Below, one piece after another: positions 750 through 30,054 of a stretch of 32,069 nucleotides of DNA; positions within the stretch are counted from its first letter, which is position 1, and every line of letters starts with the position of its first letter. Where the stretch lies: NCBI GenBank assembly GCA_945874545.1, contig CAMCHD010000006.1:1-32069 (forward strand), given 5' to 3'. The translations under genes and the position numbers were made by a program. The DNA comes from Akkermansia muciniphila (GTDB taxonomy: Bacteria; Verrucomicrobiota; Verrucomicrobiia; Opitutales; Opitutaceae). Below the pieces are notes generated by a model, which saw nothing but the letters and a program-made list of their open reading frames with translations, did not search any database and was not told where the DNA came from.

Positions 750-1008
750 CGTGGTCGGGCGCGCGCCATTTGCGCCGGGTGGGCGAAAGCATGGCGGCCA
801 TCGGTTCCGGTGTGGTCTCGTGGTCGGGATGGGCCTCCGGGATCTCGATCACCGCGCCGGCGTCGTCGCCGATGTAGACGCGGAAATGGCGGTCGGTCCG
901 GGCGCGCAGCGAACCGAGCGCGGGCGCGAAGTGCCGGACGCGCCAGCCGGGGATGACGACGGCGAGACGGCGGTCCGGGCCGCCGGGCGTAGGGCGGCGG
1001 GGCGTCAT
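750..1008 (-). pseudogene. 5' remnant of a GT2-family glycosyltransferase
   Basis: From ATG at 1008..1006 (overlaps the TGA of the upstream GT4): MTPRRPTPGGPDRRLAVVIPGWRVRHFAPALGSLRARTDRHFRVYIGDDAG..., a GT2 N-terminus with a GDDA nucleotide-binding motif. GT2-like sequence stops soon afterwards. 3' limit approximate. Confidence 0.5.
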
Positions 1009-2129
1009 GGCGCGGCGGGCGACAAACGGTGGAAGTCGGCGATGAACTCCGTCGCGATGCGCGCGGGAGAGTGGCTCTCCCGCACCGCGAGGGCGGCGGC
1101 GGAGAGCGGGGCGGGATCGAGAGCCGAGGCCGCGACGAGGGCGCGGGCGAGGGCGGCGACCGGAGCCGGCGCGCGGTGGTCGAAGACGAGACCGTTTTCC
1201 CCGGGCCGGATAAAATCGCGGAAGCAGGCCAGGTCGGATACGAGCGGGATGCAGCCCCACGCCATGGCCTCGAGCGGGGCGAGGCCGAAACTCTCGCCCT
1301 TTTCCGCGAGCGATGGGTAGACAAACACGGTGGCCGATTCGTAGCGCGCGGCGAGGGTCTCCGGATCGTAAATCGGGCCGGACCACGTCGTGTCGGGCGA
1401 GGCGTGGCGGGTCAGCAGGTCGCGCAGCCACGCCTCGCCGCCGCCGCCCCGCCCGATCTCGGCCGGGCCTACCAGCTCGAGCGTCCAGCCGGCGAGGGCG
1501 CCGCCGGCCTTGGCGGCGGCGAAGGCCGCGAGCAGCAGGGCCACGCCTTTTTCGGGGTGCAGGCGGCCGACAAACAAAAACCGTTTTGTCCGGCGCGCGG
1601 GATCGGGCGCGCGCGAGGGTGCGGCCGGCAGCGGATTAGGGATGACCACGAGACGTTCGCCGACGCGGGGCAGCTCGGCGCGGATGGCGGCGGCGACGGC
1701 GGACGAGTTGGCCCGCAGGCGGGAGGCCCGGTGGTAGAGACGCATCTGGCCCTTTGGCATGCGTTCGACGCTCACGTGAATGCGGCCGTGGCGACCGGAG
1801 GCGAGGATCGGGGCCCAGAAGGTGTTTGTGACCAGGATGTCGCCGTCCGGCGCGGCGCGGAGGGCGCGACGGGTGTAGAGCAGGTCGGCCCATTTCAGCG
1901 CGAGGCCGGACGCGGGCTGGTCGCGGCCCGGCACCCGCAGGTGGCGCACGCCCTCGAGCTCGCCGGAGGCCGGTAGTTCGGGCACGGCGCGCGAGACCTG
2001 CGTCACCACCTCGCCGCGGCGGGCGAACTCGATCGCGAGGCGATGCCAGAGTTTTTCCACCGCGCCGCCGCGCAGGGGAGGGACGGGGAAAAAGGCCCCC
2101 TGGAGGATGGTGATGCGCAGCGCGGACAA
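1005..2129 (-). CDS. GT4-family glycosyltransferase
   Basis: 374 aa; N-terminal PLRGGAVEKLWHRLA, 'FLFVGRLHPEKGVALLLAAF' and 'VFVYPSLAEKGESFGLAPLEAMAWGCIPLVSD' motifs typical of GT4. Confidence 0.9.
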   Translation of the reverse strand: MSALRITILQGAFFPVPPLRGGAVEKLWHRLAIEFARRGEVVTQVSRAVPELPASGELEGVRHLRVPGRDQPASGLALKWADLLYTRRALRAAPDGDILVTNTFWAPILASGRHGRIHVSVERMPKGQMRLYHRASRLRANSSAVAAAIRAELPRVGERLVVIPNPLPAAPSRAPDPARRTKRFLFVGRLHPEKGVALLLAAFAAAKAGGALAGWTLELVGPAEIGRGGGGEAWLRDLLTRHASPDTTWSGPIYDPETLAARYESATVFVYPSLAEKGESFGLAPLEAMAWGCIPLVSDLACFRDFIRPGENGLVFDHRAPAPVAALARALVAASALDPAPLSAAALAVRESHSPARIATEFIADFHRLSPAAP

Positions 2130-2353: not shown

Positions 2354-3877
2354 ATGACCACCCCGCCTTCCGTGCTTGGTTTGACGGCGGGGTTGGAGCT
2401 GGGGCTCGCGCTCGGCTTTCTTTCTATTCTCAACGGACTGGCCGGTTCGGAGGGCGGGTCCGTTCGTCGCCGCCTCTTGTCGGTGGCCGGCCTCGGGTGT
2501 GCGCTGATCCCGCCGGCCCTGCGCCTGGCGACCGGTCCGGTCGCGGCCGAGCCGTGGTTTCTTTTGCTGGCCGGCGTCCTGACCTGGAAGGCGATCGGGT
2601 TGGATTATGAGTGGACGAGGCCCCCGCGAAACACCCCGCTTTGGCGGGCGCTGGCCGTGGTGTTTTGCGCGGCCGGTTCGGTGGACGCGTTGTTTTTGCT
2701 GCCCTGGGCGGGTATCGTGATCGGCCGGCTGGGTCTCTGGACCCACCATGCGCACCTGCCGTTGCGATTGATCTTCGCCCTGCTGTCCCTCGGCCTGGCC
2801 GACCAGGCGCTGGATTTCACGCCTTTCGGCGGCGACGCGGCGGACGGCCTCATCGCGACCGCGCTTTACCTCGCCGTAGTGCTGATCCACTACTGGGTGC
2901 CGGGGCTGGCCAAGATGGCGCTCGGCCCGCGCTGGTTCTCCTGGGCGCGGGACAATACATCCCACTTTTTCCCGGTGAACGCCTACCTGCACGGCTGGAT
3001 GGCCTTTCTGCCGGCCCGGCGAATGCGGCGGGTGTCCCGTGCGCTCAAGCCCCTGAACCGGCCGCTTCAGATCGCCGTGCTCGCCATCGAGGCGGGCGCG
3101 CCGCTGTTTTTTTTCTCCGCGCCGACCTTCCTGGTCTGGCTGGGATTGGTGGCGGCCATGCAGACCGCGATTTTCCTGCTCACGGGCCTGTTGTTCCTGG
3201 AATACATCATCGTCTGCCTCGCCGCGATTTTCCTCTTTCCCGGAACCCCGGACCCCTTCACCGGCCTGCTGGCCGTGCTGCTGGGAGGCGTGCTGTGGAA
3301 GGCCCGGATCATCCGGCCTTGCAAGCTGGCCTGGTGGGATTCGCCGCTGGGCGGCAAGGTCTGGCTGGAGGCCGAGCTGGACGACGGTCGTCGGGTGCAT
3401 CTGCCCAACCGCCTCCTCTGCCCGCTGGAACGGGACTACGGCCAGACCCGCACGCTGCGATTTCTCGACGAAAAACTGCCCTATTGGCATCTGGGCGAAG
3501 TCGCGAGTCGCGCCACGCACGCGCGCCTGCTGGCGGCCGGGGCCGATCCGGCCGCGCTCGGCCGTATCGCGGGGGAGGCGGGACGTTCCCATGGCGAGCC
3601 GCGGCGGCGCGCGACCGATCTGGCCGAGTTGGAGCGTATCCGCGCGGAGGATTTTTTTGAACGAAAGCGGTTTTTGCCGCGTCCGCTGCGTTGGCTGAAG
3701 TTTCCGGCGGAGCATAATTTTCACTGGGGTCCGCTTCCCGCCTGGAATCCTTGGACGGACCGCATCGGGGCGCTCGAGCTGGTCTTTCGCGAGCACTACC
3801 AGACCGACGAGGAGATTGTCCTGATCCGGAAAAAAACCATTCTGCGGCTGGACGGCGGGTCGAGTGGCCCGGGATGA
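2354..3877 (+). CDS. Polytopic membrane protein, HTTM/vitamin-K-dependent gamma-carboxylase-like
   Basis: 507 aa with many hydrophobic helices; 'HYWVPGLAKMALGPRW' and 'IEAGAPLFFFSAPTFLVWLGLVAAMQTAIFLLTGLLFLEYIIVCLAAIFLF' resemble HTTM-domain proteins; soluble C-terminal region. Family call tentative. Confidence 0.6.
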   Translation: MTTPPSVLGLTAGLELGLALGFLSILNGLAGSEGGSVRRRLLSVAGLGCALIPPALRLATGPVAAEPWFLLLAGVLTWKAIGLDYEWTRPPRNTPLWRALAVVFCAAGSVDALFLLPWAGIVIGRLGLWTHHAHLPLRLIFALLSLGLADQALDFTPFGGDAADGLIATALYLAVVLIHYWVPGLAKMALGPRWFSWARDNTSHFFPVNAYLHGWMAFLPARRMRRVSRALKPLNRPLQIAVLAIEAGAPLFFFSAPTFLVWLGLVAAMQTAIFLLTGLLFLEYIIVCLAAIFLFPGTPDPFTGLLAVLLGGVLWKARIIRPCKLAWWDSPLGGKVWLEAELDDGRRVHLPNRLLCPLERDYGQTRTLRFLDEKLPYWHLGEVASRATHARLLAAGADPAALGRIAGEAGRSHGEPRRRATDLAELERIRAEDFFERKRFLPRPLRWLKFPAEHNFHWGPLPAWNPWTDRIGALELVFREHYQTDEEIVLIRKKTILRLDGGSSGPG

Positions 3878-3905: not shown

Positions 3906-5057
3906 TCATGCCAGGGCTCGCTCCACCGCGGCGTTGAAGCGGGCCTCGCCGGCGGCGGGGAGGTGTGTCGGAGCGAGCGGGCCGGCGAATCCGGACTCGC
4001 CTTCGGCGGCGGAGAGCAGCCGCGCGATCAACTCGGCGGGCTCGTGCGGCGAGAACAGGCGTCCGGGGTCGGAGATCAACTCGAGGAACGAAGTGGCCCG
4101 GGCCGCGATCAGCGGCGTGCCGGTGGCGGCGGCCTCGATCACCGGGTAGCCAAAACCCTCGTAGAAGCTCGGGCAGACCACGAGGGAGGCGAGTTTGTAG
4201 AGCGCGGGCAGGTCCTCCTCGGGCACGTGGCCGATGCGGAGCACGGAGTCCCGAAGCTCGGGCAGGCGGGCCAGGGTCGCGAAGAGGGGCCCGGTGAAGG
4301 GGGTGTCGCCGGCGGGGATCTTTCCGGCCAGCACGAGGGGTGGGAGGGTGCGCCGACGGGAGGCTTCGGCGTAGGCGGCGAGCAGAAAGGGCAGGTTTTT
4401 GTTTAACCGGTAGCCACCCAGATAGAGCCAGAAACGCGGCGGCAGACCGAGGCGTGCGCGCAGGTCGGCCATGCGGGCCTCCGCCGGCCGGGGGTCGAAA
4501 TCACGCGGCAGCCAGTTGGGCACCACCTCCACGGCGGGCGGGGTGAGCCCGTGCAGATCGGCCAATTCGCCGGCGGTGAAACGGGAGACGGCGAGCAGGC
4601 GGCTGCGCCGCATCTGGGCCAGCAGCAGCCGGCGCCCCGGGCCGGGGCGGCCGCCCCGGCTGGGGGCGCCAAAACGGTCTCCGTAGCAGTCGTGGGAAGT
4701 GAGGACGGGTCGGCGCAGGGGCAGGAAGGCCTGGCATTCGAAGGGGGCGTAGAAAACGGCCTCCGGGGCTTTGCGCCGCAGGTGCAGGGCGAGCAGGTTG
4801 GACCAGAAAAGGTTGGCGAAGGAAAAGCCCCGGCGCGGGTCGGGGGCGGGGAAAAACTCCGCCACGTCGGCGAGTCCGGCGGGCGCCTCCGCGCGGCGGC
4901 AGGAGGGCAGGTAGACGCGAAAGCGCCCGGCCAGCGGGCCGCCGCGCAGCGCATCCACCGCCGCCCGGGCGTAGCGTTGCAGGCCGCCGGTGCCGTCGAG
5001 CAGGGTGTGGCCGTAAAAGGCGAGGGCGGGGGATGCGGACGGCGGACGCCTTTTCAT
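3906..5057 (-). CDS. GT4-family glycosyltransferase
   Basis: Start taken at MKRRPPSASPALAFYGHTLLDGTGGLQRYARAAV (ATG 5057..5055, 4-nt overlap with upstream gene); 'LYLGGYRLNKNLPFLLAAYAEA' and 'VVCPSFYEGFGYPVIEAAATGTPLIAA'. The track's 5147 start would overlap the upstream gene. Confidence 0.88.
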   Translation of the reverse strand: MKRRPPSASPALAFYGHTLLDGTGGLQRYARAAVDALRGGPLAGRFRVYLPSCRRAEAPAGLADVAEFFPAPDPRRGFSFANLFWSNLLALHLRRKAPEAVFYAPFECQAFLPLRRPVLTSHDCYGDRFGAPSRGGRPGPGRRLLLAQMRRSRLLAVSRFTAGELADLHGLTPPAVEVVPNWLPRDFDPRPAEARMADLRARLGLPPRFWLYLGGYRLNKNLPFLLAAYAEASRRRTLPPLVLAGKIPAGDTPFTGPLFATLARLPELRDSVLRIGHVPEEDLPALYKLASLVVCPSFYEGFGYPVIEAAATGTPLIAARATSFLELISDPGRLFSPHEPAELIARLLSAAEGESGFAGPLAPTHLPAAGEARFNAAVERALA

Positions 5058-6808
5058 AAGCGGGTGGGCGCGGACCGGCGCCGGAAAGGAGAGAGGAGAC
5101 GGGGGGCCCCGGTGGCGCGCAGCAACTCCTTGTAGAAGGCCGGGCAAAGGATGGGGCGCAGCGGGGCGGCGCCGATGGCGCGGGCGGCGCGGTTAAAATT
5201 CGCCTGTCGCAGCAGCAGATTTTTCAGCGGTGTCGCGCGCTCGCGGAGATTCTGGGATTTAGGCAGCCGGCGCCAGGCGGTGAGCGCGGGCTGCAGCGTG
5301 ATGACGGGACCGTGCAGGGGCGCGACTCCGGCGAGGGCGCTGTCGATCGCCAGGCCGAGGCCACCGGGGTAGTCGAGCGGCAGTCGGGCGGCGAGGAAGT
5401 CGCGGCGAAAGGCGAGGGCGCTGGTCCAGTAGTGCAGGTCGGTGTCCTGGGTGGCGTAGGTGGCGGCGAGGTGGTCCGCCACGTGTTTGCGCGCCTCCCG
5501 TTCCTCGCGCAGCGGACGGCCCTCCGCGTCTATCCGCAACATCGGAGCCTGCACCAGCACGGCGGCGGGCCGTTCGGCCCAGGCCTCCTCGTAGAGCCGT
5601 ATCCGGTCGGAAAGATACACATCGTCGCCGTCCAGCAGGTGCAGGTGGTCGGCGGTGCTGGCGGCGAAGGCGTGATGGAGCGCCGCGCCCTGGCAGGCGC
5701 GGCCGGGGAGCGAGTGGTCATGCACGCCCGCGATCAGCCGCAGGCGGTCGCCGTAGGAGCGGAGGATGGCGAGCGAGTCGTCGGTGGAGCCGTCGTCGTA
5801 GGCGATGATCTCGTCGGGCGGGCGGGTCTGACCGAGGACGGAATCGACGCAGGCGCGCAGCCACGGTCCGTTGTTGTAGTTGTTGATCAGCACGCCGACG
5901 CGGGCCGGGGGTCCGTCGGGGCGCGGCGGGGCGGCGAGGGGCGGGGGAGGGGCCGGCCGGAAAAGGCGGATCACGGGCGTCAGGCCGGCGGCGCGGGCCG
6001 TCTCGATAAAAAGGGCGCGGCTGCGCCACGGACGGAGGGGTCTGGCGCCGAGTTTACGGGCCACGCGATTGAAGTGGGCCTGGCGGGCGCGGAGATTGGC
6101 CAGGCGGCCGGCGCTTTGGTTCCGGCTGAGGGAGCGGGGATGGCGGCGCCAACCGGTGAGGGCGGGCTCGAGGGTAGCGACCGGGCCGAGCAGCGGGGCC
6201 ACGCCGGCGATGGCGCTGTCCATGGCGAGGGCGGGCGTGATCGGCGCGCAGAGTTCGAGCAGCCGGGCGAGCGGTTCGCGACGGAAGGCGAGGGCGCTGG
6301 TCCAGTAGTGAAAATCCGGATCCTGGGCGGCGTAGGTCGCGGCGAGGGCGTCCGCTATCTGTTTGCGGGCCTCGCGTTCCTCGCGGAGCGGGGCGCCGGC
6401 GGGATCGATGCGCAGCATCGGCGCCTGGACCAGCACCAGGTCCTCCCGGGCGGCCCAGGCCGCCTCGTAGCGCCGGATCTTTTCCGGCAGGAAAACATCG
6501 TCGCCATCGAGCAAATACAGGTGGTCGGCGGTGCTGGCGGCGAAGGCGGCGCGGACGGCCGCGAACTGCGAGGCGAAGGCGTGGCGCGCGTCCTCGTGCC
6601 GGCCTGCGATCAGCCGCAGGCGGTCGCCGTAGGAGCGAAGGATGGCGAGGGAATCGTCGGTGGAGCCGTCGTCGCACACGATGATCTCGTCCGGCGGGCG
6701 CGACTGGGCCAGGACGGAGTCGACGCAGGCGCGCAGCCACGGTCCGTTGTTGTAGTTGTTGATCAGCACGCCGACCCGGGGCGCGGCGGGGTTCGGGGCG
6801 GTGTTCAT
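5054..6808 (-). CDS. Bidomain glycosyltransferase: two tandem GT2 domains in one ORF
   Basis: Start at MNTAPNPAAPRVGVLINNYNNGPWLRACVDSVLAQSRPPDEIIVCDDGSTDDSLAILRSYGDRL...; the same motif recurs mid-protein (RVGVLINNYNNGPWLRACVDSVLGQTRPPDEIIAYDDGSTDDSLAILRSYGDRL) after a proline-rich linker (RPAPPPPLAAPPRPDGPPA). No stop between domains. Confidence 0.88.
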   Translation of the reverse strand: MNTAPNPAAPRVGVLINNYNNGPWLRACVDSVLAQSRPPDEIIVCDDGSTDDSLAILRSYGDRLRLIAGRHEDARHAFASQFAAVRAAFAASTADHLYLLDGDDVFLPEKIRRYEAAWAAREDLVLVQAPMLRIDPAGAPLREEREARKQIADALAATYAAQDPDFHYWTSALAFRREPLARLLELCAPITPALAMDSAIAGVAPLLGPVATLEPALTGWRRHPRSLSRNQSAGRLANLRARQAHFNRVARKLGARPLRPWRSRALFIETARAAGLTPVIRLFRPAPPPPLAAPPRPDGPPARVGVLINNYNNGPWLRACVDSVLGQTRPPDEIIAYDDGSTDDSLAILRSYGDRLRLIAGVHDHSLPGRACQGAALHHAFAASTADHLHLLDGDDVYLSDRIRLYEEAWAERPAAVLVQAPMLRIDAEGRPLREEREARKHVADHLAATYATQDTDLHYWTSALAFRRDFLAARLPLDYPGGLGLAIDSALAGVAPLHGPVITLQPALTAWRRLPKSQNLRERATPLKNLLLRQANFNRAARAIGAAPLRPILCPAFYKELLRATGAPRLLSPFRRRSAPTRL

Positions 6809-7992
6809 GCGGCGAGGAGGGCGTCCAGCGCGGCGGCGAAGGCGCGGGGGCAGACGTGGAAGGGACTGTTGGGATTCCTGCCGTGCGGGTGCCAGGCGTG
6901 GCGGCGGCTGCGGCCCAGCAGCGCCCCGTAGCCGATGCCGGCGCCGGCGCAAAGGGAGCGGAAGTAGGGCCAGGGGTTGCTGGTGGGGATGAGTTCGAGA
7001 AGGCGTGCGCCGGGTCGGGCGTGGACCAGGTTGGCGAGGGCGGCGCCGTGCACGCCCACGATGTGGGTGGCGGCGGCGAGGCGGCTCCGCAGCCGGGGAA
7101 AATCGGTCGGGTCGGCCTCGACAAAACCGCGCGCGACGAGCTGGGCCTCGATCTCGGCCTCGTTTTCGATCCCGCGGTTGCCCCGGCGGGCCAGATACAA
7201 CCGCGCGGGGCCGGCGGGTGCGGCCGGGGGAAGCAGCGAACGGTGAAAGGCGACGACCTCCGGGGGGTAGCATCGGCATTCCCCGGGGTTGGACGGCTGC
7301 ACGAGCACATCGCAGAGAAACTGGGACGTGCGGGAGGGACGCACCCATTTGCCCTCCGGGATGCCGAGCGCTCCGGTGACGATCCGGGCGGTCTCGCCGG
7401 GGAAACGGGGCAGCACGACGTGATCCAGATCGGCCCAGGCGAAACCGGCGGCGCGGGCGTAGGCCAGACGCGCGACCGCGTCGAGCAGCCAGTGGTTGAA
7501 GTTGTAGCCGGCGTGGGCGGAGCAGAGATTCAGGGTGCGGCCCGGCAGGTGCACGGGGGCGTCGGAAAGGAGCGTCCGGTAGATCAAGGACATCCGGTGA
7601 CCGGAATAGGAGCAGAACTCGGGCAGCAACACGTCCCCGGGCGCGACGGGCCAGCCGGCCTCGTGAAAAATCCGGGTGTTGCGGAGCAGGGCGACGCCCC
7701 GCTCGGAGAGGGCGTGTTCGGGGCGGCGGACCAGGGGCGGCAGGCCGTCCTCCGGCAGAAACATCGGCGGCAGGCGGAGGACCCGCGCGGGCAGGACCGG
7801 GCGCCACTCGTCCCCGCTCGCCCGGAGGTGGTCGGCGGTGCGGGCCCACCGGCGGGGCGGGCCGAACCGAAGCGAGGAGCCGGGCAGGAGGCGCAACGCG
7901 GCCCGCGGGGTGAGGGTCCAGAACGCGAGGAGGGCGACGCGTTTGAGCTCGCCGAGAGCCGGGTGGGCGGGGATGCGAAAGGCGGCGGACAT
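6805..7992 (-). CDS. GT61 (DUF563)-like glycosyltransferase
   Basis: 395 aa; 'SAHAGYNFNHWLLDAVARL', 'RLYLARRGNRGIENEAEIEAQLVARGF', 'IVGVHGAALANLVHARPGARLLELIP' motifs. Confidence 0.85.
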   Translation of the reverse strand: MSAAFRIPAHPALGELKRVALLAFWTLTPRAALRLLPGSSLRFGPPRRWARTADHLRASGDEWRPVLPARVLRLPPMFLPEDGLPPLVRRPEHALSERGVALLRNTRIFHEAGWPVAPGDVLLPEFCSYSGHRMSLIYRTLLSDAPVHLPGRTLNLCSAHAGYNFNHWLLDAVARLAYARAAGFAWADLDHVVLPRFPGETARIVTGALGIPEGKWVRPSRTSQFLCDVLVQPSNPGECRCYPPEVVAFHRSLLPPAAPAGPARLYLARRGNRGIENEAEIEAQLVARGFVEADPTDFPRLRSRLAAATHIVGVHGAALANLVHARPGARLLELIPTSNPWPYFRSLCAGAGIGYGALLGRSRRHAWHPHGRNPNSPFHVCPRAFAAALDALLAA

Positions 7993-7999
7993 ATGGGCC

Positions 8000-8884
8000 T
8001 CAAGCGGCGGGCCGGCGCCCTTCGGGATTGCGGGCCAGGCGGGCGGCCAGGACGGACGGCAGCAGACGGCGGACCAGCTGACGGTAGAAGCGCCGGTTCA
8101 GCCAGAGATGGATCGGGGGGTGGCCGTGGCGACGGGCCACGTGGTTGAAGCAGCGATGGCGGCGCCGGGTGGCGGCGAGCGGATCGCGCTGGCCGGCGGC
8201 GCGGGAGATCGAGCCGCCGCGCTGGCGCCAGCAGGAGAGCGGCTCATCGAGCGTCAGCACCGGGCCGAACAGGCACACGGCGGCGGTGAGGCGGGCGTCG
8301 ATCGGCGCGTCGCGGATCACGGAATAGTCGATCGGCACCTCGTGCGCGAGGTAGGAGCGGGTGAACGCGATCGCGCTGGTGGCGTAGTAGAGGTCGCAAT
8401 CCTGCTGGCGGTAGGTGGCCCGCCGGTGGTCGCGCTGGTGTTTGTTCGACTCGTAGTTATCCCGCAGGCGTTCGCCCGCCTCGTCGATCAGCCACATCGG
8501 GGCCTGGACGAGCGCGGCGTCCGCCCGCGCGGCCCAGGCGGCCTCGTAGCGTTCGATTTTTCCGGGCAGGAAACAGTCGTCGCCGTCGAGCAGATAGAGG
8601 TGTTCGGCGGTGCTGGCGGCGAAGGCGCCGGCAAGGGCCGCGCCCTGCGAGACGATGCCCGGGCGGGTGCCGTCGTGCACGCCCTCGATCAGGCGGAGGC
8701 GGTCGCCGTAGGAGCGCAGGAGGGCGAGCGAGTCGTCGGTGGAGCCGTCGTCGTAGACGATGATCTCGTCGGGGCGGCGGGATTGGGCGAGCACGGAGTC
8801 GACGCAGGCGCGCAGCCAGGGGCCGTTGTTGTAGTTGTTGATCAGGACGCCGACGGCCGGGAGCGATGGGGAGCGTGGCGTCAT
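8000..8884 (-). CDS. GT2-family glycosyltransferase (same subfamily as 5054..6808)
   Basis: 294 aa; VGVLINNYNNGPWLRACVDSVLAQSRRPDEIIVYDDGSTDDSLALLRSYGDRLRLIEGVHDG, LLDGDDCFLPGKIERYEAAW. Confidence 0.9.
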   Translation of the reverse strand: MTPRSPSLPAVGVLINNYNNGPWLRACVDSVLAQSRRPDEIIVYDDGSTDDSLALLRSYGDRLRLIEGVHDGTRPGIVSQGAALAGAFAASTAEHLYLLDGDDCFLPGKIERYEAAWAARADAALVQAPMWLIDEAGERLRDNYESNKHQRDHRRATYRQQDCDLYYATSAIAFTRSYLAHEVPIDYSVIRDAPIDARLTAAVCLFGPVLTLDEPLSCWRQRGGSISRAAGQRDPLAATRRRHRCFNHVARRHGHPPIHLWLNRRFYRQLVRRLLPSVLAARLARNPEGRRPAA

Positions 8885-9759
8885 CGGGAGGCGGAGCGGG
8901 GGCGGCCGCGCAGTCTTTGCACGGCGACGCGGAGGCCGACCGGCGCCCAGGTGCGGACGCAGGCGTGGAAAAAGTTATAGTTGTGCCAGAACAACAGCGG
9001 CCGCGCGCCGATCGCGCAGGCATGGCGGTTGAAGTAGCGCACCCGCATGAGCATCAGGTTCAGGTAGGAGCGTCGGGGTTCGCGCCGCCAGAGCGATTCG
9101 GGACGGGTGCGCCAGTAGGTCGAAATCCCGGGGACGAGCAGGATCGGTCCGTAAAGCGGGGCCACCGCGGCGAGGCGCACCTCGAAGCCGAGGTGCAGGC
9201 CGTCGTTGACATCGAGCGGGAGCCGCCGGGCCAGATAATCGCGGCGGTAGGCGTGGGTGCTGGTGGCGTAGCACAGGTGGCAGTCGTGCACCCGGTAGGT
9301 TTGTTCGTAGTAGTCGTGGGTGTGGTTCAGCGCCCAAAAGTGGACCTCCAGGGGCGCGCCTTCGGGGGAGAGGTTTTGGCTTTGGGAGTGCAGCAACACG
9401 GCTTCGGGCGTGCGAGCCCAGGCGTCCTCGTAGCGGCGGATCCGGTCCGGTAGATAGACGTCGTCGCCGTCGAGGAGGTGCACGTGCTCCGCGGTGCTCG
9501 CCGAGAAGGCGGCGGCGACTGCGGCGGCGTGCGAGGCCCGGCCGGAGCGGGTGTAATCGTGGACGCCTTCGATCAGGCGGATGCGGTCGCCGTAGGAACG
9601 CAGAATCGCGAGCGAGCCGTCGGTGGAGCCGTCGTCGTAGACCACGATCTCGTCGGGGAGGCGGGTCTGGGCGAGGACGGAATCGACGCAGGCGCGCAGC
9701 CACGGACCGTTGTTGAAGTTCGTGATCAGCACGCCGACGCTGGGGGTGGAACGTTTCAT
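8881..9759 (-). CDS. GT2-family glycosyltransferase (same subfamily)
   Basis: Start at MKRSTPSVGVLITNFNNGPWLRACVDSVLAQTRLPDEIVVYDDGSTDGSLAILRSYGDRIRLIEGVHD (ATG 9759..9757, overlapping the upstream TGA); LLDGDDVYLPDRIRRYEDAW. Confidence 0.9.
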   Translation of the reverse strand: MKRSTPSVGVLITNFNNGPWLRACVDSVLAQTRLPDEIVVYDDGSTDGSLAILRSYGDRIRLIEGVHDYTRSGRASHAAAVAAAFSASTAEHVHLLDGDDVYLPDRIRRYEDAWARTPEAVLLHSQSQNLSPEGAPLEVHFWALNHTHDYYEQTYRVHDCHLCYATSTHAYRRDYLARRLPLDVNDGLHLGFEVRLAAVAPLYGPILLVPGISTYWRTRPESLWRREPRRSYLNLMLMRVRYFNRHACAIGARPLLFWHNYNFFHACVRTWAPVGLRVAVQRLRGRPRSASR

Positions 9760-10955
9760 TCTCGGGTCGGGGGGACGAGGCTCCGGTAGAGCGCGAGGTA
9801 ACGTTCGATCATGCGGGTCGGGGCCCAGACGGGGGCGCGGGCGAGGCCGGCCGTTCCGAGCCGTTCGCGGTCGGGCCAGGCGCGGGCGATGGCGGCGGCG
9901 GCGGCGGCGGGGTCGGTCGGATCGAAGTAGATCGCGGCGTCCCCGCCCACCTCGGGCAGCGGCGGGCGGTCGGAGGTGAACACGGGGCCGGCGCAGGCCT
10001 GGGCCTCCGCGACCGGCCAGCCGAAACCCTCGGCGAGCGAGGGGAACACCAGCCCGGCCGCGAGCGAGTAGAGGGCCTCGAGTTCGGGGTTCGACGGACC
10101 GAGCACGACGTGAACAAAGGCGTCGAGGCCGAGGCGCTCGACCAGCGCGCGGTCGGTCGCGCCGAGCGGTTTGCCCACCATGACCAGATCCGGGCAACCC
10201 GGCAGGACGGTGCGCAGGCGGGCATAGAGCGCGAGCAGCCCGGGGCGGTTTTTATACCATTGGCCGCCGCCGACGTTTACCAGGAATCCGTCCGGGCGGA
10301 CGAGGCCGGCGGGCAGGGCGCCGCCCGCGACCAGAGGGGCGAGGGTGGCGGCGGCCTCGGCCGGGGTGCGTCGCCGGTAGGGGTGGTTCAGGCCGTTGGG
10401 GATCACGGTGGCGCGGTCGGGCGACCAGCCGGTCAGGCGGAGCAGGTCGCCGCGGGTGGTTTCCGACACGCACGCCGCGTGGGGCAGGCGGCGGATATGG
10501 TCGAGGATCCAGCGTTGAAAAGCCCGCGCGGCGCGGCCGGGGGTCTGACCGGGGATCTCCCCTGCGGCGGCGCGGATGCGCAGCAGGTCGTGGCAGGTGC
10601 ACAGCGCGGGGAAGGCCAGCCCGGTCACGCACGCGGCGTTGGCGTGGTCGACCACATGCACCACGTCGGGGCGGAGGCGGGCGGCGACGGCGCGGAGCCG
10701 GGTGGGATAGACCACGAACTTGTCCAGGTAGCCGAGCAGTTTGGGAAAACCGTCGTAGCGGTAGGGGCGGGCCAGGCGGGCGAAGCGCGGGCGCGGGCAC
10801 TCGAGAAGGGGTTCGTGGCCGGCGGCGGCGAGGCCGTCGCGCAGGAGGTCTCCGAAACGCAGCATGCTTTGCTGGCGGTCGGCGAGGAAGTTGCCCGCCA
10901 GCAGCACGCGCAGCGGCCGTTCCGGTCCGGAGGATATGGTCTCGCTCCGGGTCAT
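9756..10955 (-). CDS. GT4-family glycosyltransferase
   Basis: Start at MTRSETISSGPERPLRVLLAGNFLADRQQSMLRFGD; 'LVNVGGGQWYKNRPGLLALYARL', 'GLVFPSLAEGFGWPVAEAQACAGPVFTSDRPPLPEVGGDAA'. Confidence 0.9.
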   Translation of the reverse strand: MTRSETISSGPERPLRVLLAGNFLADRQQSMLRFGDLLRDGLAAAGHEPLLECPRPRFARLARPYRYDGFPKLLGYLDKFVVYPTRLRAVAARLRPDVVHVVDHANAACVTGLAFPALCTCHDLLRIRAAAGEIPGQTPGRAARAFQRWILDHIRRLPHAACVSETTRGDLLRLTGWSPDRATVIPNGLNHPYRRRTPAEAAATLAPLVAGGALPAGLVRPDGFLVNVGGGQWYKNRPGLLALYARLRTVLPGCPDLVMVGKPLGATDRALVERLGLDAFVHVVLGPSNPELEALYSLAAGLVFPSLAEGFGWPVAEAQACAGPVFTSDRPPLPEVGGDAAIYFDPTDPAAAAAAIARAWPDRERLGTAGLARAPVWAPTRMIERYLALYRSLVPPTRE

Positions 10956-12268
10956 GTCGTCGCGGTCGCGGCGGTCTCGTCCTCGACTCCGTCGGCGGCG
11001 TCCGTCTCCTCGTCCTCCTCGTTTTCGACCGGACCGGCGGCGGCGGCGAGGGCGAGGCCCGAGCCGAAGACCGCAAAACCGAGGATGGTGGGCGGAGCCC
11101 ACTGGCCGGAGACCACCAGCAGCAGGCTGGCGCCCACCAGCATCCAGCCGAGGCCGTCGTTGTGCCGCAGCAGACCCAGCCAGGCGGACCAGAGCACGTG
11201 CAGGGCGAGCCAGCAGCGGAAGAGGATGAAGCCGGCCCCGAGGACGGGACCGAGTTCGAGCAGGATTTTCGGCCACTCGCCCTCGGCGAGCAGGAAGGTG
11301 AGCGCGCCGGTGGTGAAGCGGGCGCCGACGTTGGAGCCGAGGCCGATGCCGTGGCCGAAAAGGGGCGCGTCCCACATCACAGCAAACGCCACCAGGTGAT
11401 CGTTGAAAAAACGCTGGAAGATACTCACGCCGACGCCGCCGCCCCGGACGGTGGATTCCTCCCAGCGGGCGGAAAACGCCGCGGTCAGCTCCTGGTTCGC
11501 CGCGACCTGGAGCATGAGGACGGCCAGACCGATCGGCACCAGCACGGTGCCGAGCCGGCGCACATCCCGCGCGACGGTGAAGAGGCCGAAGACCACCACC
11601 ACGAGCACCGAAAACAACAGGCTCCGGCTGATCGAAATGGGCACCGCGATCACGATGGCGGCGGTGGCGGCGACCAGGAGCCGGCGCGGATAGGTGCCGG
11701 GGTGGGTCCAGCCGTAGAAGGCGAACGCGGTCGCCAGCGGATACCAGGCCATCGGCCCGGTGATGAAGGAAAACGGTCCGGGCGGGCGGATCTTGCCCAG
11801 CGCGCCGCCCAATTGTCCGACCTCGCCGCCGCCGATGCCTTTGTTCAGGAACGATCCGGGCCCGGAGTTGTATTGCAGGAACATCAGTCCGGTGATGCCG
11901 AGCGTGAGCCACAGGGCCGCGCGGCCGATGCGCACGACATCGGCGTGGTCCAGGGCGGCGCCCATCACAAAAACGAGCGGCACGTGAAGGTAGTTGATCC
12001 GCAGTCCGTAGATCGCGACGAACAGCGGGGCGCCGGCGATCAGGGCGAACACCAGCGAGAGTCCCGCCAAACCCGCCAGCGCGAGCAGGGCGGGGCGGAA
12101 GGGAAAGTGTCCGCTGGACAGGGCCAGAAAGTAGGTGGCGATGACCACGGGATCGCGCACGATCAGGAGAGGTTCGGCCAGCCCGGGGAGGATCCACTTG
12201 CGCAGCGCGCCCTCCAACACGAGCAGGAGGAAATAGGCCCAGAGAAGCGGTTTTACATACGGGTGCAC
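10952..12268 (-). CDS. Polytopic O-antigen polymerase/ligase-like (Wzy/WaaL-type) membrane protein
   Basis: About 439 aa from a likely GTG start at 12268..12266 (VHPYVKPLLWAYFLLLVLEGALRKWILPGL...); many TM segments; 'SARWEESTVRGGGVGVSIFQRFFNDHLVAFAVMWDAPLFGHGIGLGSNVG'. The track start at 12403 would overlap the upstream GT4; true start uncertain. Confidence 0.75.
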   Translation of the reverse strand: MHPYVKPLLWAYFLLLVLEGALRKWILPGLAEPLLIVRDPVVIATYFLALSSGHFPFRPALLALAGLAGLSLVFALIAGAPLFVAIYGLRINYLHVPLVFVMGAALDHADVVRIGRAALWLTLGITGLMFLQYNSGPGSFLNKGIGGGEVGQLGGALGKIRPPGPFSFITGPMAWYPLATAFAFYGWTHPGTYPRRLLVAATAAIVIAVPISISRSLLFSVLVVVVFGLFTVARDVRRLGTVLVPIGLAVLMLQVAANQELTAAFSARWEESTVRGGGVGVSIFQRFFNDHLVAFAVMWDAPLFGHGIGLGSNVGARFTTGALTFLLAEGEWPKILLELGPVLGAGFILFRCWLALHVLWSAWLGLLRHNDGLGWMLVGASLLLVVSGQWAPPTILGFAVFGSGLALAAAAGPVENEEDEETDAADGVEDETAATATT

Positions 12269-12287: not shown

Positions 12288-13529
12288 TCAGCGGTTGGCG
12301 AGCCGGGATACTTCCCGGGCGAGGCTCGCGCGATATTTTTCCCAGGTAAAATCGGCGGCGCGAAGCATCGCGGACCGGCCCATGGCAAACCGGCGCTCCT
12401 CATCCCCGGCGAGGGTGAGCAGGCGGGAGGCGATGGCTTCCGGGTCGCGAATCGGCACGATGTTCCCTTCGCGGTTCTCCGTGATCAGGTCCGGCGCGGC
12501 GGTGTGCGGGGTCGCGATGATCGGCAGTCCGCAGGCCATCGCCTCGAGCAGCACCAGGCCGAAGCCTTCGAACAGGGAGGGAAACACAAACACGTGGTGC
12601 CGGGACATCTCGTCCAGGATGGCGGCGTGGGGCAGGCTGGGGAGGTGGCGGTGGCGGCGCAGGGCGGCGGCGAGGGGGGCGCACGGGGCGGCCGGCGCGG
12701 TTCCGATCAGGGTGAGGGCGAAACCCGGTCCGAGGGCGTCGACCGCTTCGAGCAGGTAACGCAGCCCTTTGCGCTGGCCGAGCGAGCCCACGAAGAGGAC
12801 GCGCAAGGGTTCGCCGGGCGCGCGGCGGGCGGGTTCGCCGCCGGCGGGGCGGGGTGGCGCGCCGTAGGGAATCACGATCGTTTCGGCCGGGACCCGCGGG
12901 GCCCCCGCCAGGGTGGCGCGGGTGAAGGAGGAGGCGACGAACACCGCGTCGGCCGTCTCCAGTTCGCGGTCCTTGCGCGCCAGCTTGGCCGCGCTGTCGC
13001 GCATGCCGCCGAGGGTGCCGGCCCATTCCGGCGAGCGTTCGGCCTCCTCGGCCAGGATGCGGCGCGCCGCCCGCCAGTAGCCGATGGGCAGGTCGTAAAG
13101 GGTGGCCAGCCCCCGGGCGCGGGCGGTGGCGAAGGTCTCCACCGCGCCGTCCTCGTAGGCGTAAACGCCGGAAAAAAAGCCCGGACGGGCGAGAAGGCGG
13201 CGCGCCGCCGCGCGATCCAGATCCCGGTAGACGCCGTCGACCGAAAAGATGCCGGTCTCGTGTCGACTCCACCGGTTCCAACCGAGGGCGGAGAACCCCA
13301 GGCGTCCGACTTCGCGCCACGGGCGGGTCTTGATCAATCCCGCCAATTCCGCCGGACGGGCGCGACGCAGCGCCTGGCGCCGCAGGCCGGCCGGCAGCGC
13401 TCGGAGCCAGGGCGCGGCGGGATCGGGGGCCAGGCAGGTATGGAACTCGCCGAGCAGACCGGCCGCGGCGAGGGCGCCGGCGGCGTTGCGCACGTTGGCG
13501 TTGCCGGTGGGATGGCTGAGCAAGATCAT
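12288..13529 (-). CDS. GT4-family glycosyltransferase
   Basis: 413 aa; 'LRVLFVGSLGQRKGLRYLLEAVDAL', 'HVFVFPSLFEGFGLVLLEAMACGLPIIATPHTAAPDLI'. Confidence 0.9.
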   Translation of the reverse strand: MILLSHPTGNANVRNAAGALAAAGLLGEFHTCLAPDPAAPWLRALPAGLRRQALRRARPAELAGLIKTRPWREVGRLGFSALGWNRWSRHETGIFSVDGVYRDLDRAAARRLLARPGFFSGVYAYEDGAVETFATARARGLATLYDLPIGYWRAARRILAEEAERSPEWAGTLGGMRDSAAKLARKDRELETADAVFVASSFTRATLAGAPRVPAETIVIPYGAPPRPAGGEPARRAPGEPLRVLFVGSLGQRKGLRYLLEAVDALGPGFALTLIGTAPAAPCAPLAAALRRHRHLPSLPHAAILDEMSRHHVFVFPSLFEGFGLVLLEAMACGLPIIATPHTAAPDLITENREGNIVPIRDPEAIASRLLTLAGDEERRFAMGRSAMLRAADFTWEKYRASLAREVSRLANR

Positions 13530-25835: not shown

Positions 25836-27089
25836 TCAGGCGGAGGCGGGGTGGTGGTCGACGGTCGCGCGCAGGCGGCAACCGCCGAAAGCGCGGTCGC
25901 TTTCCCAATCGTTGCGCCCGCCGGGGTGCACTTCCCACAGGGCGAAGTTGTCGACGATATCGCACATGTGGCGTCCCTGGCCGATGGCGGCGTGGCAGTA
26001 GTAGCGGCCGGGTGAAAGGGGCAGCGCCGGGAGCGAGAGCGTGACGGTGTGCAGGCCCGGGTGGAGCCGCAGCGTCCGGCCGTCGGCGTCGCTGTCGAGG
26101 GTCATCACCCGGCTGCCTTCCACGGTGTTGAACGCGATCCCGATCATCCCGGCGTCGATCGTCGAGCGGACCCGCACGGTGAACTCCACCTTCAACGGTT
26201 CGCCGAAAAAGAGGCCGCGTCCGTCGCCGGCGCGGATACGGACGAGGCGGGCCTCCTCGCCGGTGCTGCCCCAGGCGCGGGGCAGGCCATCGGTGTCCAC
26301 ATCCAGATCGCTCGCCCCGGCGTCGCGGTTGTAGTGTTCGATCGCCTCCTCGGCGGGGTAGATGCCGCGCAGCCGGCCGCCCTCGAGCACCACGCAGCGC
26401 TGGCACAGGCGGCGGATCGTGGTCATGGCGTGGCTCACGAAAAGGACGGTGCGACCGTGGCCGCGGGCGATCTCCTGCATGCGGCCGATGCACTTGCGCT
26501 GGAACTGGGCGTCGCCCACGGCGAGCACCTCGTCGATGATCAGGATCTCCGGCTCGAGATGGGCGGCGACGGCGAAGGCCAGCTTCACATACATCCCGCT
26601 CGAGTAACGCTTCACCGGCGTGTCGATGAAACGCTCGATCTCGGCGAAGGCGATGATCTCGTCGAGCTTGGCCGCGATCTCCGGGCGTTTCATGCCGAGG
26701 ATGGCGCCGTTCAGGAACACGTTGTCCCGGCCGCTCAGCTCGGGGTGGAAGCCGGTGCCGACCTCCAGCAGGCTGGCGACGCGGCCGCGCAGGACGGCCT
26801 CGCCCGAGGTGGGCTCGGTGATGCGGCTGAGGATTTTCAGCAGGGTGCTCTTGCCCGCGCCGTTGCGTCCGATGATGCCCACGACCTCGCCGGGCTGGAT
26901 CGAAAAGGACACGTCGCGCAGGGCCCAGAATTCCCGCTCGGCGGGCGCGGTCTCGGGCGTGGTCTCGGGGGTGCGGCCGCTCAGGCGGCGCACCCATTTT
27001 TCCGTCTCCTCCCGGAAGCTGGAGAAACCGAATTCGCCCAGGGCGTAGCGTTTGGATAGGCCGGAAATCTCGATGATGGGGCGGGACAT
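25836..27089 (-). CDS. wzt: Polysaccharide ABC exporter ATP-binding protein with C-terminal Wzt_C-like domain
   Basis: 417 aa; Walker A 'GIIGRNGAGKSTLLKIL', signature 'YSSGMYVKLAFAVAAHLEPEILIIDEVLAVGD'; about 180-aa C-terminal beta-rich extension after 'EEAIEHYNRDAG'. Confidence 0.93.
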   Translation of the reverse strand: MSRPIIEISGLSKRYALGEFGFSSFREETEKWVRRLSGRTPETTPETAPAEREFWALRDVSFSIQPGEVVGIIGRNGAGKSTLLKILSRITEPTSGEAVLRGRVASLLEVGTGFHPELSGRDNVFLNGAILGMKRPEIAAKLDEIIAFAEIERFIDTPVKRYSSGMYVKLAFAVAAHLEPEILIIDEVLAVGDAQFQRKCIGRMQEIARGHGRTVLFVSHAMTTIRRLCQRCVVLEGGRLRGIYPAEEAIEHYNRDAGASDLDVDTDGLPRAWGSTGEEARLVRIRAGDGRGLFFGEPLKVEFTVRVRSTIDAGMIGIAFNTVEGSRVMTLDSDADGRTLRLHPGLHTVTLSLPALPLSPGRYYCHAAIGQGRHMCDIVDNFALWEVHPGGRNDWESDRAFGGCRLRATVDHHPASA

Positions 27090-27099
27090 GGAAGGGGCC

Positions 27100-27957
27100 T
27101 CAGGCGTAATCGATAAAATCGCGGGCCAGGCGCTGGTAGAAGCCGACGCCGACCACGAGCACGACGAGCGTCACGGCCACGGACAGGGCGTAGGCGCCGG
27201 GCTGGACGCCGGACGTGCCGAGCAGGGTGGCGCGGAAGGCCTCGATGACGGGCGCGACGGGGTTCACCGCCGCCAGCCAGCGCCAGCGTTCGGGGATTTG
27301 CGAGATGGGGTAGATCACCGGGGTCACATACAACAGCAGGTTCAGGAAAAACGGGGCGACCTGTTGGAAGTCGCGGTATTTCGCGGTCACGGCGGAGAGG
27401 AGCAGGCCGGAGCCGAGGGCGAGCAGTCCCAGGTGGAGGAACAACAAGGGCAGAAGCAGGGCGCCCCAGCCCGGGCGGGCCGCGAACTCCGGGTTTTTCA
27501 GCACGGTGAAGACAAACATCGCGGTAAACGTGAACAACTGGACGCCGGCGGCGGCGAGATTGGACACCGCGAGGGCGAGCGGCACGACGAGGCGGGGAAA
27601 GTAGACTTTGCTGAACAGGCCGTAGTTGCCGCGCAGGGTGTTGCTGGTGGCGTTCAGGGTCTGGTTAAAATAATTCCACCCGAGCAGACCGCAGAGGTAA
27701 AAAAGCGAGGGCGGGATGCCGTCGGTGGCCACGCCGAGCACGCGCCCGAAGACGAAGCCGAACACCACGGCGGTGACCACCGGGGTGACCATGGCCCAGG
27801 CGGGGCCGAGGATGGTCTGTTTGTAGCGCGCGACAAAATCCCGCCGGACGAGCAGCACGAGCAGGTCGCGGTAGTCGATCAGGCCGCGCCAATCGAGCCA
27901 GAGCCAGCCGTTGCGGGCGCGGATGCGGATCTCGATTTCGGGCGGGGCGGAGGACAT
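27100..27957 (-). CDS. wzm: Polysaccharide ABC exporter permease (ABC-2 type)
   Basis: Start at MSSAPPEIEIRIRARNGWLWLDWRGLIDYRDLLVLLVRRDFVARYKQTILGPAWAMVTPVV; 'LLLYVTPVIYPISQIPERWRWLAAVNPVAPVIEAFRATLLG'. Confidence 0.93.
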   Translation of the reverse strand: MSSAPPEIEIRIRARNGWLWLDWRGLIDYRDLLVLLVRRDFVARYKQTILGPAWAMVTPVVTAVVFGFVFGRVLGVATDGIPPSLFYLCGLLGWNYFNQTLNATSNTLRGNYGLFSKVYFPRLVVPLALAVSNLAAAGVQLFTFTAMFVFTVLKNPEFAARPGWGALLLPLLFLHLGLLALGSGLLLSAVTAKYRDFQQVAPFFLNLLLYVTPVIYPISQIPERWRWLAAVNPVAPVIEAFRATLLGTSGVQPGAYALSVAVTLVVLVVGVGFYQRLARDFIDYA

Positions 27958-27968
27958 GCGGGGAAAAA

Positions 27969-28520
27969 TCAGCTCAGCACGCGGGTGAGGACGGGCAGGA
28001 GGGCGGCGCCCTTGCGGCGCCAGTTCTCCAGCTTTTGCACCCGGGCGCGGAGCACGGCGGCCTCGGCGCGGGACAGGCCCTTGCCGGCGGAGATCTCCGC
28101 CCCCACCCGGTCGAGCCGCTGGCGGCCGTGTTCGAGGTGCGGGCTGATGCGGTCGCGCAGCAGCCCGCCGACCAGGGTGCGCAGCTCCGTCTCGGGTTCG
28201 AAATACTCGCGACGGTCGTCGGGCAGACCGGCCGCGCGGATGGCGCCGAGGCTCCTCAGGGTGCGCAGCCCCTGGCTGACCGAACCCTTGCTGAGGGCGA
28301 GGCGATCCACGATGTCCTGAAACGACAGCGGGCGTGGCGAGGCGTAGAGCACGCCGTAGATCTCGCCGAGGGAGCGCGGAACGCCGAGCGCCTCCGCGGC
28401 GGCGACAAAAAGCTCGATAAAGCGCGCCTGCACCGGCTCGAGCGCGGGCGGGGTCGCGCTCACCGCGCCGGCCGCGGACGGCGCGGCGGGAGGTGGCGAG
28501 GACGAGGCGGAGGTGGGCAC
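27969..28520 (-). CDS. GbsR/MarR-like winged-helix transcriptional regulator
   Basis: 183 aa, GTG start; 'EALGVPRSLGEIYGVLYASPRPLSFQDIVDRLALSKGSVSQGLRTLRSLGAI' winged-helix region. Confidence 0.8.
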   Translation of the reverse strand: MPTSASSSPPPAAPSAAGAVSATPPALEPVQARFIELFVAAAEALGVPRSLGEIYGVLYASPRPLSFQDIVDRLALSKGSVSQGLRTLRSLGAIRAAGLPDDRREYFEPETELRTLVGGLLRDRISPHLEHGRQRLDRVGAEISAGKGLSRAEAAVLRARVQKLENWRRKGAALLPVLTRVLS

Positions 28521-28530
28521 GACGGGAGAT

Positions 28531-28554
28531 TTTGTTCAAAAAAAAATGAACAAA
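28531..28554. promoter_or_regulatory. Candidate operator: perfect inverted repeat TTTGTTCA-A8-TGAACAAA
   Basis: Read directly: tttgttca aaaaaaaa tgaacaaa; AT-rich island in very GC-rich sequence, about 10 nt upstream of the GTG start of the GbsR-like gene, in the divergent intergenic region. Confidence 0.6.
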
Positions 28555-28577
28555 TCAGGAGGGTCAAGGGGCAATGT

Positions 28578-28600
28578 CCGGCGCGCGGGGGGCGCGCCGG
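28578..28600 (+). promoter_or_regulatory. Candidate leader hairpin upstream of the ligase-like gene
   Basis: ccggcgcgc-ggggg-gcgcgccgg: perfect 9-bp stem with 5-nt loop, followed by ggcg-tgtttt-cgcc, in the region 5' of the ATG at 28651. Confidence 0.35.
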
Positions 28601-28650
28601 CGGCGTGTTTTCGCCTTTCGGTCGCGGCGGCCGGTGGCGAGGATCGGGGC

Positions 28651-30054
28651 ATGAGACCCGTCTCCCGCGCCCGCGAACGTGAAGCCGAGCCCGTTCCCGG
28701 GGCGGCGGAAAAGGTGGCGGTGGGCGGGGCGTGGTTGACGGTGGCGTTGACCACCTGGGGTTTCGCGGGGCGGGCGTCCTGGGCGCCCTTTGCGTTTACC
28801 TGCTGCGCGGCGGCGACGGCGTTGTTGACCGCGTGGTGCGTTTGGCGGGAGGGCTTGCGGGTGAAGGTCGGGCCCTTTGTGCCGCTCGGCCTCCTGCTGG
28901 CCTACGTCGGCGTGGGGCTGCTCAATCCCAGCCACTACCGGGATGGCGGCGCGCTGGTGGTGTGGGTGAGGCGCGCGGACTGGATCGAGTGGCTGCCCTC
29001 CACGGTGGATCGCGTCGCGACGCTGGGCGCGGTGTTGCCCTGGGCGGCGGCGCTGGCCCTGGGCGGGGCGCTGCGGCAGGCGCGTCTGGGGCGGACGGCG
29101 ACGCGGTGGTTGTGGGCGGCGCTCCTCGCGCACGGGCTGGTGGTCGCCTTGGTCGGCGCATATTTTTTCGTCACCCGCGATCCCCGGATGCTGGGTTTCG
29201 TGGTGGCGCGGCACGGGTATCACTTTTCCTCCTTTGTCTACCGCAACCACTGGGCGGCCTACGCGGTCTTGTTGATGGCGGTGGGCTTGGGTTTCGCCTT
29301 CTCGGCCCTGCGGCGGTGGCGGGCGGGGGGCGGGCCGGCGGACCGGGCCTTGGCGGGCTTCGGGGCGGCGGTTCTGCTGGCGGTCACGATTCCGATGCCG
29401 GGGTCGCGGTCGGGGACGGTGATGGCGCTCGGTTTGCTTGGCGCGGCCCTGCTCGGCATCGCCTGGCTGGGCCGGAGGCAGGCGGGGCGACGGGGGGATG
29501 ACGAAGGCCGAGGGGCCAAGCTCTGGGCGATCGCGGGCTTTGTCGCGGTGGTGCTCGTGGCGGGGGCCTTTTTTAACCGCGGCCAGGTGCGCGAGCACTG
29601 GGGGCGGACGGTGCGCGAGGTCTCGGGTCTGGCGCAGGGCGCGGAAAATCTGCGCGTTTCCCTGACCCGGGACACGGTGCGGATGGCGCTGGACCGGCCG
29701 GTCTGGGGCTGGGGTCTGGGCTCCTACCTCATCGTGTTTCCCCAGTATCAGGGGGATTATCTCCGCGACTCGCGGGGGCGCATCACCAGCAAGCTGGTCC
29801 ATGCCCACAACGACTGGGCGCAGATCTGGGCCGAACTCGGTCTGGTCGGCGGAGCGATTCTCTGGATCCCGGCGGGCTGGCTCGGGTGGCGTGTTTTCCG
29901 CACCCGCGGCGTGGGCGTGCGTTGGACGGCGGGCGGGCTGGGCCTGATCGCGGTCTACGGGCTGGTGGATTTTCCGGCGCACTGCCCGGCGGTGTTGTTC
30001 CTCGGCGTGACGCTCCTCGCCAGCGCGGCGGAGCCGTCCGAGCGGCGCGAGTAG
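28651..30054 (+). CDS. O-antigen ligase (WaaL/Wzy_C)-like polytopic membrane protein
   Basis: Start at MRPVSRAREREAEP (ATG 28651); multiple TM segments; 'FVYRNHWAAYAVLLMAVGLGF', 'IPMPGSRSGTVMALGLLGAALLG', 'RPVWGWGLGSYLIVFPQYQGDYLRDSRGRITSKLVHAHNDWAQIWAELGLVGGAILW', the H(A)HN(D)-E-G pattern of the Wzy_C family. Confidence 0.88.
   Translation: MRPVSRAREREAEPVPGAAEKVAVGGAWLTVALTTWGFAGRASWAPFAFTCCAAATALLTAWCVWREGLRVKVGPFVPLGLLLAYVGVGLLNPSHYRDGGALVVWVRRADWIEWLPSTVDRVATLGAVLPWAAALALGGALRQARLGRTATRWLWAALLAHGLVVALVGAYFFVTRDPRMLGFVVARHGYHFSSFVYRNHWAAYAVLLMAVGLGFAFSALRRWRAGGGPADRALAGFGAAVLLAVTIPMPGSRSGTVMALGLLGAALLGIAWLGRRQAGRRGDDEGRGAKLWAIAGFVAVVLVAGAFFNRGQVREHWGRTVREVSGLAQGAENLRVSLTRDTVRMALDRPVWGWGLGSYLIVFPQYQGDYLRDSRGRITSKLVHAHNDWAQIWAELGLVGGAILWIPAGWLGWRVFRTRGVGVRWTAGGLGLIAVYGLVDFPAHCPAVLFLGVTLLASAAEPSERRE

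Follow-up and report, generated by a model that had tools for sequence, protein, structure and literature searches.

The closest described counterpart of the fused glycosyltransferase considered here is KfoC of Escherichia coli K4, a two-domain GT2 polymerase in which domain A1 transfers GalNAc and domain A2 transfers GlcA (PMC7764085). In the ABC transporter-dependent O4 and O7 O-antigen systems of Klebsiella pneumoniae, the polymerase components are distributed across single and multi-module proteins (PMC11231755). Partial gene conversion between bacterial paralogs has been described for RF1 and RF2 (PMC4530459). The locus analyzed here resembles each of these systems in part. Similar to KfoC (PDB 2z86, 2z87), the fused protein A-B carries two GT2 domains on one chain of similar length, but the two proteins are only about 19% identical. 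In contrast to KfoC, the halves of A-B are 66% identical to each other and hence perhaps use the same donor; the two proteins are likened by sequence and by the fold of domain B. Similar to the K. pneumoniae O4/O7 transferases, the GT modules of this locus occur in single and multi-module proteins beside Wzm/Wzt. This likeness is one of organization; here, the modules of A-B are tandem duplicates of one subfamily. Finally, as in RF1/RF2, the proposed conversion is restricted to a region whose function is common to the paralogs, although the genes differ and the tract detected here, a 5'-terminal stretch of about 170 bp, is seen as a silent-site signal. Among the papers listed in literature searches, none offered a direct precedent for such conversion in part of a bacterial GT2 array, which is not proof of absence.

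The window, meaning the whole stretch of DNA that was analyzed, is contig 6 (32,069 bases) of an Opitutaceae genome assembled in 398 contigs and estimated to be 83% complete. The genes for Wzm, Wzt with a Wzt_C domain and a Wzy_C protein, together with the many GT genes, mark a surface-polysaccharide locus (Table 1). Nearly all of the operon genes lie on the minus strand, and many overlap the next gene by the 4 bases ATGA. No chain terminator was identified in the window locus, and the Wzy-like membrane protein has no match in Pfam or NCBIfam. At the contig end (81-1008), frames on both strands resemble, by eye, the broken-off starts of GT genes. These frames have no Pfam match and may be decayed cassettes or an artefact of the contig end.

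Table 1. Features of the polysaccharide locus in the window.
Feature	Coordinates	Strand	Description
GT2 domain D	8881..9759	-	292 aa; opens the array, immediately after GT4a; PF00535
GT2 domain C	8000..8884	-	294 aa; groups in the tree with G006_178a of a sister species; PF00535
GT61 gene	6805..7992	-	Between C and fused A-B; PF04577
Fused GT2-GT2 protein A-B	5054..6808	-	584 aa; halves A (5933-6808) and B (5057-5932) joined by a Pro-rich linker
GT4b	3906..5057	-	Final slot gene on the minus strand; G006 and G004 have orthologs, G001 has weak traces
GT4a	9756..10955	-	Conserved backbone gene; one flank of the slot
GT4c	1005..2129	-	Conserved backbone gene; opposite flank of the slot; adjoins GT4a in G010
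Multi-spanning membrane protein	10952..12256	-	Backbone gene; Wzy-like by eye
GT4 backbone gene	12288-13529		
Wzt (ABC_tran + Wzt_C) and Wzm (ABC2_membrane)	25836..27957	-	Polysaccharide exporter
Wzy_C protein	28513-30054	+	Ligase or polymerase both possible

A sequence-only reading of this DNA had placed four GT2 domains of a single subfamily in the window, two of them fused in one ORF and interleaved with a GT61 gene, and this arrangement is confirmed: all four domains are found on the minus strand at the coordinates in Table 1, with matches to PF00535 (GT2) and PF04577 (GT61). The three GT2 proteins exceed the PF00535 gathering score of 23.3 with 147.6, 74.8 and 83.2 bits, and the fused protein contains two separate stretches that match this family. 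The nucleotide-binding DDGSTD motif and the DxD-type DGDD motif are kept in all four domains. Within the motif LGFEVRL of D, D alone has Glu at a nearly invariant site where the 18 further domains in the comparison have Asp; this may alter the catalytic base.

Comparison of five genomes of the genus (the window genome, G006, G004, G001 and G010) places the array in a variable slot of a conserved operon. The backbone GT4 gene, the Wzy-like gene, GT4a and GT4c are common to all five genomes, and the slot lies between GT4a and GT4c. In G010, a complete genome, the slot is empty and GT4a directly meets GT4c through an ATGA overlap. In G001, about 0.66 kb separates the two genes (L075 6617-7282, G001:C79), and this scar contains weak, degraded traces of GT4b (E values of 5e-5 and 1e-4), which suggests a deletion there; no GT2 remnant was found in the scar. 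The G001 match to GT4a contains one in-frame TAG.

The window slot holds D, C, GT61, A-B, GT4b and a membrane-protein gene on the opposite strand (2354-3877, plus strand, between GT4b and GT4c). The 507-aa product of this last gene has no Pfam or NCBIfam match and was not seen by tblastn in the slots of the other genomes. The G006 slot contains G006_5, two GT4-like genes, GT61, another GT2, G006_178b, G006_178a and GT4b. It spans the end of contig 5 and contig 178, and one gene is apparently broken by the contig ends. The GT61 and second GT2 types are each present twice at this locus (L052 6176-8331 and 13638-16980; G006:C178), indicating that duplication extends beyond the GT2 subfamily of the array. 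The G004 slot contains G004_301a, two genes resembling GT4, a protein of 307 aa that we would take for a sulfotransferase, G004_301b and G004_301c, with GT4b and GT4c on a separate contig. Contigs in G006 and G004 were joined by gene order, and the three genomes with an array are all fragmented MAGs. The proposal that copy number could vary is supported, as related genomes vary in both the number and the content of genes at this locus.

Taken as a whole, these data are probably best explained by old GT2 paralogs held in a variable operon slot, with a fused A/B duplication and occasional conversion at the 5' end. The conversion component has been probed through the shared 5' block. Blocks of about 150 bp had been described as nearly the same by eye; the shared block is 168 bp long, with nucleotide identities of 92% for A/B, 91% for B/C, 89% for A/C, B/D and C/D, and 85% for A/D, and identity among the copies drops to 54–66% outside it. 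However, when a single 55-aa block is back-translated twice at random with local codon usage, the two versions already agree at 85 ± 2.4% of their nucleotides. Nucleotide identity alone was therefore rejected as a yardstick, and the block must be judged by its excess of silent identity.

Silent identity in the 5' block versus the rest of the gene is 0.98 versus 0.72 for G006_178a/b (Fisher 8e-5), 0.88 versus 0.60 for A/B (Fisher 3e-4) and 0.87 versus 0.57 for B/D (Fisher 3e-4), with a weaker excess in the remaining window pairs. A silent-site permutation test in the manner of GENECONV was run with three penalties, and its P values are uncorrected over the 12 within-genome array pairs. The resulting values are 4e-4 to 9e-4 for G006_178a/b and 1e-4 to 1.5e-3 for B/D, while A/B gives 1e-3 to 2e-3 at two of the three penalties and 0.07 at the third. 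A bounded tract of excess silent identity is thus present in G006_178a/b and B/D and, less firmly, in A/B. The G006 tract has a boundary on either side and shares 47 of 48 silent codons and 166 of 174 bases, yet the rest of these two genes is only 59% identical in nucleotides and 44% identical in protein. In tree tests, a clade of G006_178a and G006_178b is rejected by the 3' part (AU 8e-7). The tree of the 3' part is in turn rejected by the 5' block (AU 0.03; 0.014 with two outgroups), although this block does not reject the single ortholog pairings when these are imposed one by one. Within-genome paralogs are not closer than orthologs across the whole gene, as ortholog pairs win outside the 5' block.

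These results indicate patchy conversion that would be confined to the 5' block, strong in G006 and supported for A/B and B/D, and we read this as occasional conversion in a block where protein constraint keeps homology. The strongest alternative is that there was no conversion and that the 5' likeness comes from protein constraint alone in a GC-rich, codon-biased genome, which would leave the remaining anatomy unchanged. In its favor are the back-translation value, the permutation test, which is not significant for A/C, A/D, B/C, C/D and the other within-genome pairs, and a slight rise of silent identity at the 5' end in the two ortholog pairs C/G006_178a and G196_3/G017, from which it follows that codon-level constraint may account for part of the signal. 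Constraint alone does not readily explain the bounded tracts in G006_178a/b, B/D and A/B, and the rise is missing from two control pairs, the orthologs G006_5/G004_301a (0.53 versus 0.55) and the tandem pair G131a/b (0.50 versus 0.54). This alternative is possible but somewhat unlikely. Short-read assembly of such blocks could also swap 3' halves between copies.

The origin of the copies was examined with a maximum-likelihood tree of the array copies and their relatives from the genus and family. The ten copies of the genus form a single clade (98/98) separate from those of other genera. Within it, A and B are sisters (100/98), C pairs with G006_178a of another species with moderate support (90/92), G006_178b groups with G004_301b (100/99), G006_5 groups with G004_301a (98/95), and D is a deep branch. 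The cross-species groupings and the depth of D suggest that most of the divergence in this family reaches back at least as far as the compared species themselves. A search of the family genomes with a single-domain profile (E <= 1e-45) finds the subfamily in 10 of 252 genomes. G017, G018, G080, G131, G149, G196 and G243, all other Opitutaceae, have one or two copies each. Similar to the array, these proteins belong to the same GT2 subfamily and have the same invariant motifs, but they are unfused and lie outside the clade of the window genus. A tandem pair of the subfamily is also present in another genus (L058 9461-11540, G131:C7); it is an independent duplication without detectable conversion, as it has no 5' silent-site excess. 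A viral origin was rejected, as the IMG/VR relatives are just 24–33% identical.

It is conceivable that the copies were imported one at a time by horizontal transfer into a hotspot slot and were not duplicated in place. The patchy presence of the subfamily in the family, the empty slot of G010 and the very different slot contents are what such transfer would produce. This explanation is nevertheless improbable, given that the ten genus copies form one clade apart from the other genera, that A and B are adjacent sisters, and that ortholog pairs occupy the same locus.

A revision concerns age. The sequence-only reading can be taken as a model in which all four domains arose by recent local tandem expansion and the array is actively recombining and altering its copy number. 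The common block, the sister relationship of A and B and the unequal copy numbers among related genomes are compatible with that model, and the phylogeny and pairwise identities do identify A and B as local sisters. However, A and B are 66% identical in amino acids and 71% in nucleotides, and all other pairs are at 48–53% and 61–66%, respectively, with silent sites near saturation. Furthermore, C is nearer to the copy of another species than to its neighbors, and the copies are mostly old paralogs. Outside the 5' block, the silent identity of A/B is 60%, compared with 58–72% for orthologs of neighboring genes between the window and G006. The silent sites of A/B have therefore diverged about as much as those of orthologs between species, indicating that the A/B duplication is not recent either. 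The longest exact repeat is 56 bp for A/B and 23–34 bp for the remaining pairs, and these short repeats give no indication of frequent unequal crossing-over. The idea of a recombination substrate is thus retained for partial conversion in the 5' block and not for unequal crossing-over. A recent four-fold local duplication is rejected on the tree and on the identity outside the 5' block, and an actively recombining recent expansion, which the tree already largely refutes, is very unlikely.

The fusion of tandem copies stands with this correction of its age. The frame of A-B is open for 584 aa, with no in-frame stop in the Pro-rich linker, and its start codon shares an ATGA overlap with the GT61 stop codon. 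The description of two complete GT2 domains joined by a proline-rich linker is borne out, as the open frame, a dN of 0.26 that is lower than the dS of 0.75, and the presence of DDGSTD and DGDD in both halves are consistent with two functional domains. The model of domain B has a GT-A fold (pLDDT 91) that matches solved GT2 structures including Leptospira 6p61, the K4 chondroitin polymerase 2z86 and WrtF, and the K4 enzyme ranks among the best of these fold matches. When the subfamily profile was compared with the PDB, the K4 chondroitin polymerase was the best sequence match, with both of its domains matched. Structure prediction of the full protein yields two GT-A domains separated by a low-confidence, disordered linker (pTM 0.55), and this model does not fix the relative position of the domains. 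The 398-contig assembly, the exact 56-bp A/B repeat and the absence of a second fusion of the subfamily (among 57 relatives and 388 phylum genomes, none gave a match covering the two halves together) might suggest that A-B is a product of misassembly or a gene in decay. This is hardly credible, because the junction falls in the linker, beyond the 5' block that the copies share, and would hence not result from a misjoin through the repeat, and because the frame stays open through A and B with dN about one third of dS and motifs in both halves.

In a GT-A domain the first half binds the nucleotide and the second half binds the acceptor. The preferred explanation, old paralogs with a fused duplication and occasional conversion, is built from sequence, synteny, slot states, phylogeny and silent-site patterns, and the activities, substrates and role of each part are predicted. 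The array would consist of paralogous single-step GT2 transferases of GT-A fold in the slot between GT4a and GT4c of a surface-polysaccharide operon with a Wzm/Wzt exporter nearby. Most copies may have split before or around the divergence of the species and been kept as distinct enzymes, probably with one linkage each. A and B would derive from a lineage-specific tandem duplication in which the stop and start between them were lost to give one protein. We infer that D, C and the halves of A-B are single-step transferases of one glycan. The two apparently intact active sites of A-B most likely add two sugars at separate sites, in outline like KfoC. The first ~170 bp would encode the constrained nucleotide-binding half, which may remain similar enough for copies to convert one another occasionally. 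This block would then be partly homogenized within a genome, while the 3' part, where sugar and acceptor specificity are expected to reside, diverges.

A further reading is that the array generates diversity, with the 5' block serving as a recombination handle for 3' specificity halves and stop loss joining whole domains. This is quite doubtful; if true, it would mean new surface-glycan linkages between strains. The separate ingredients of the locus are already known, and it is a worked case and not a new kind of system. As such, it offers a natural series within one genus, in which a single polysaccharide-operon slot is found empty, scarred or filled. Paralogs with a partly converted nucleotide-binding half and a divergent remainder provide a case for locating linkage specificity in GT2 enzymes, and the fused A-B protein provides a usable case for how two-domain transferases arise from tandem genes.
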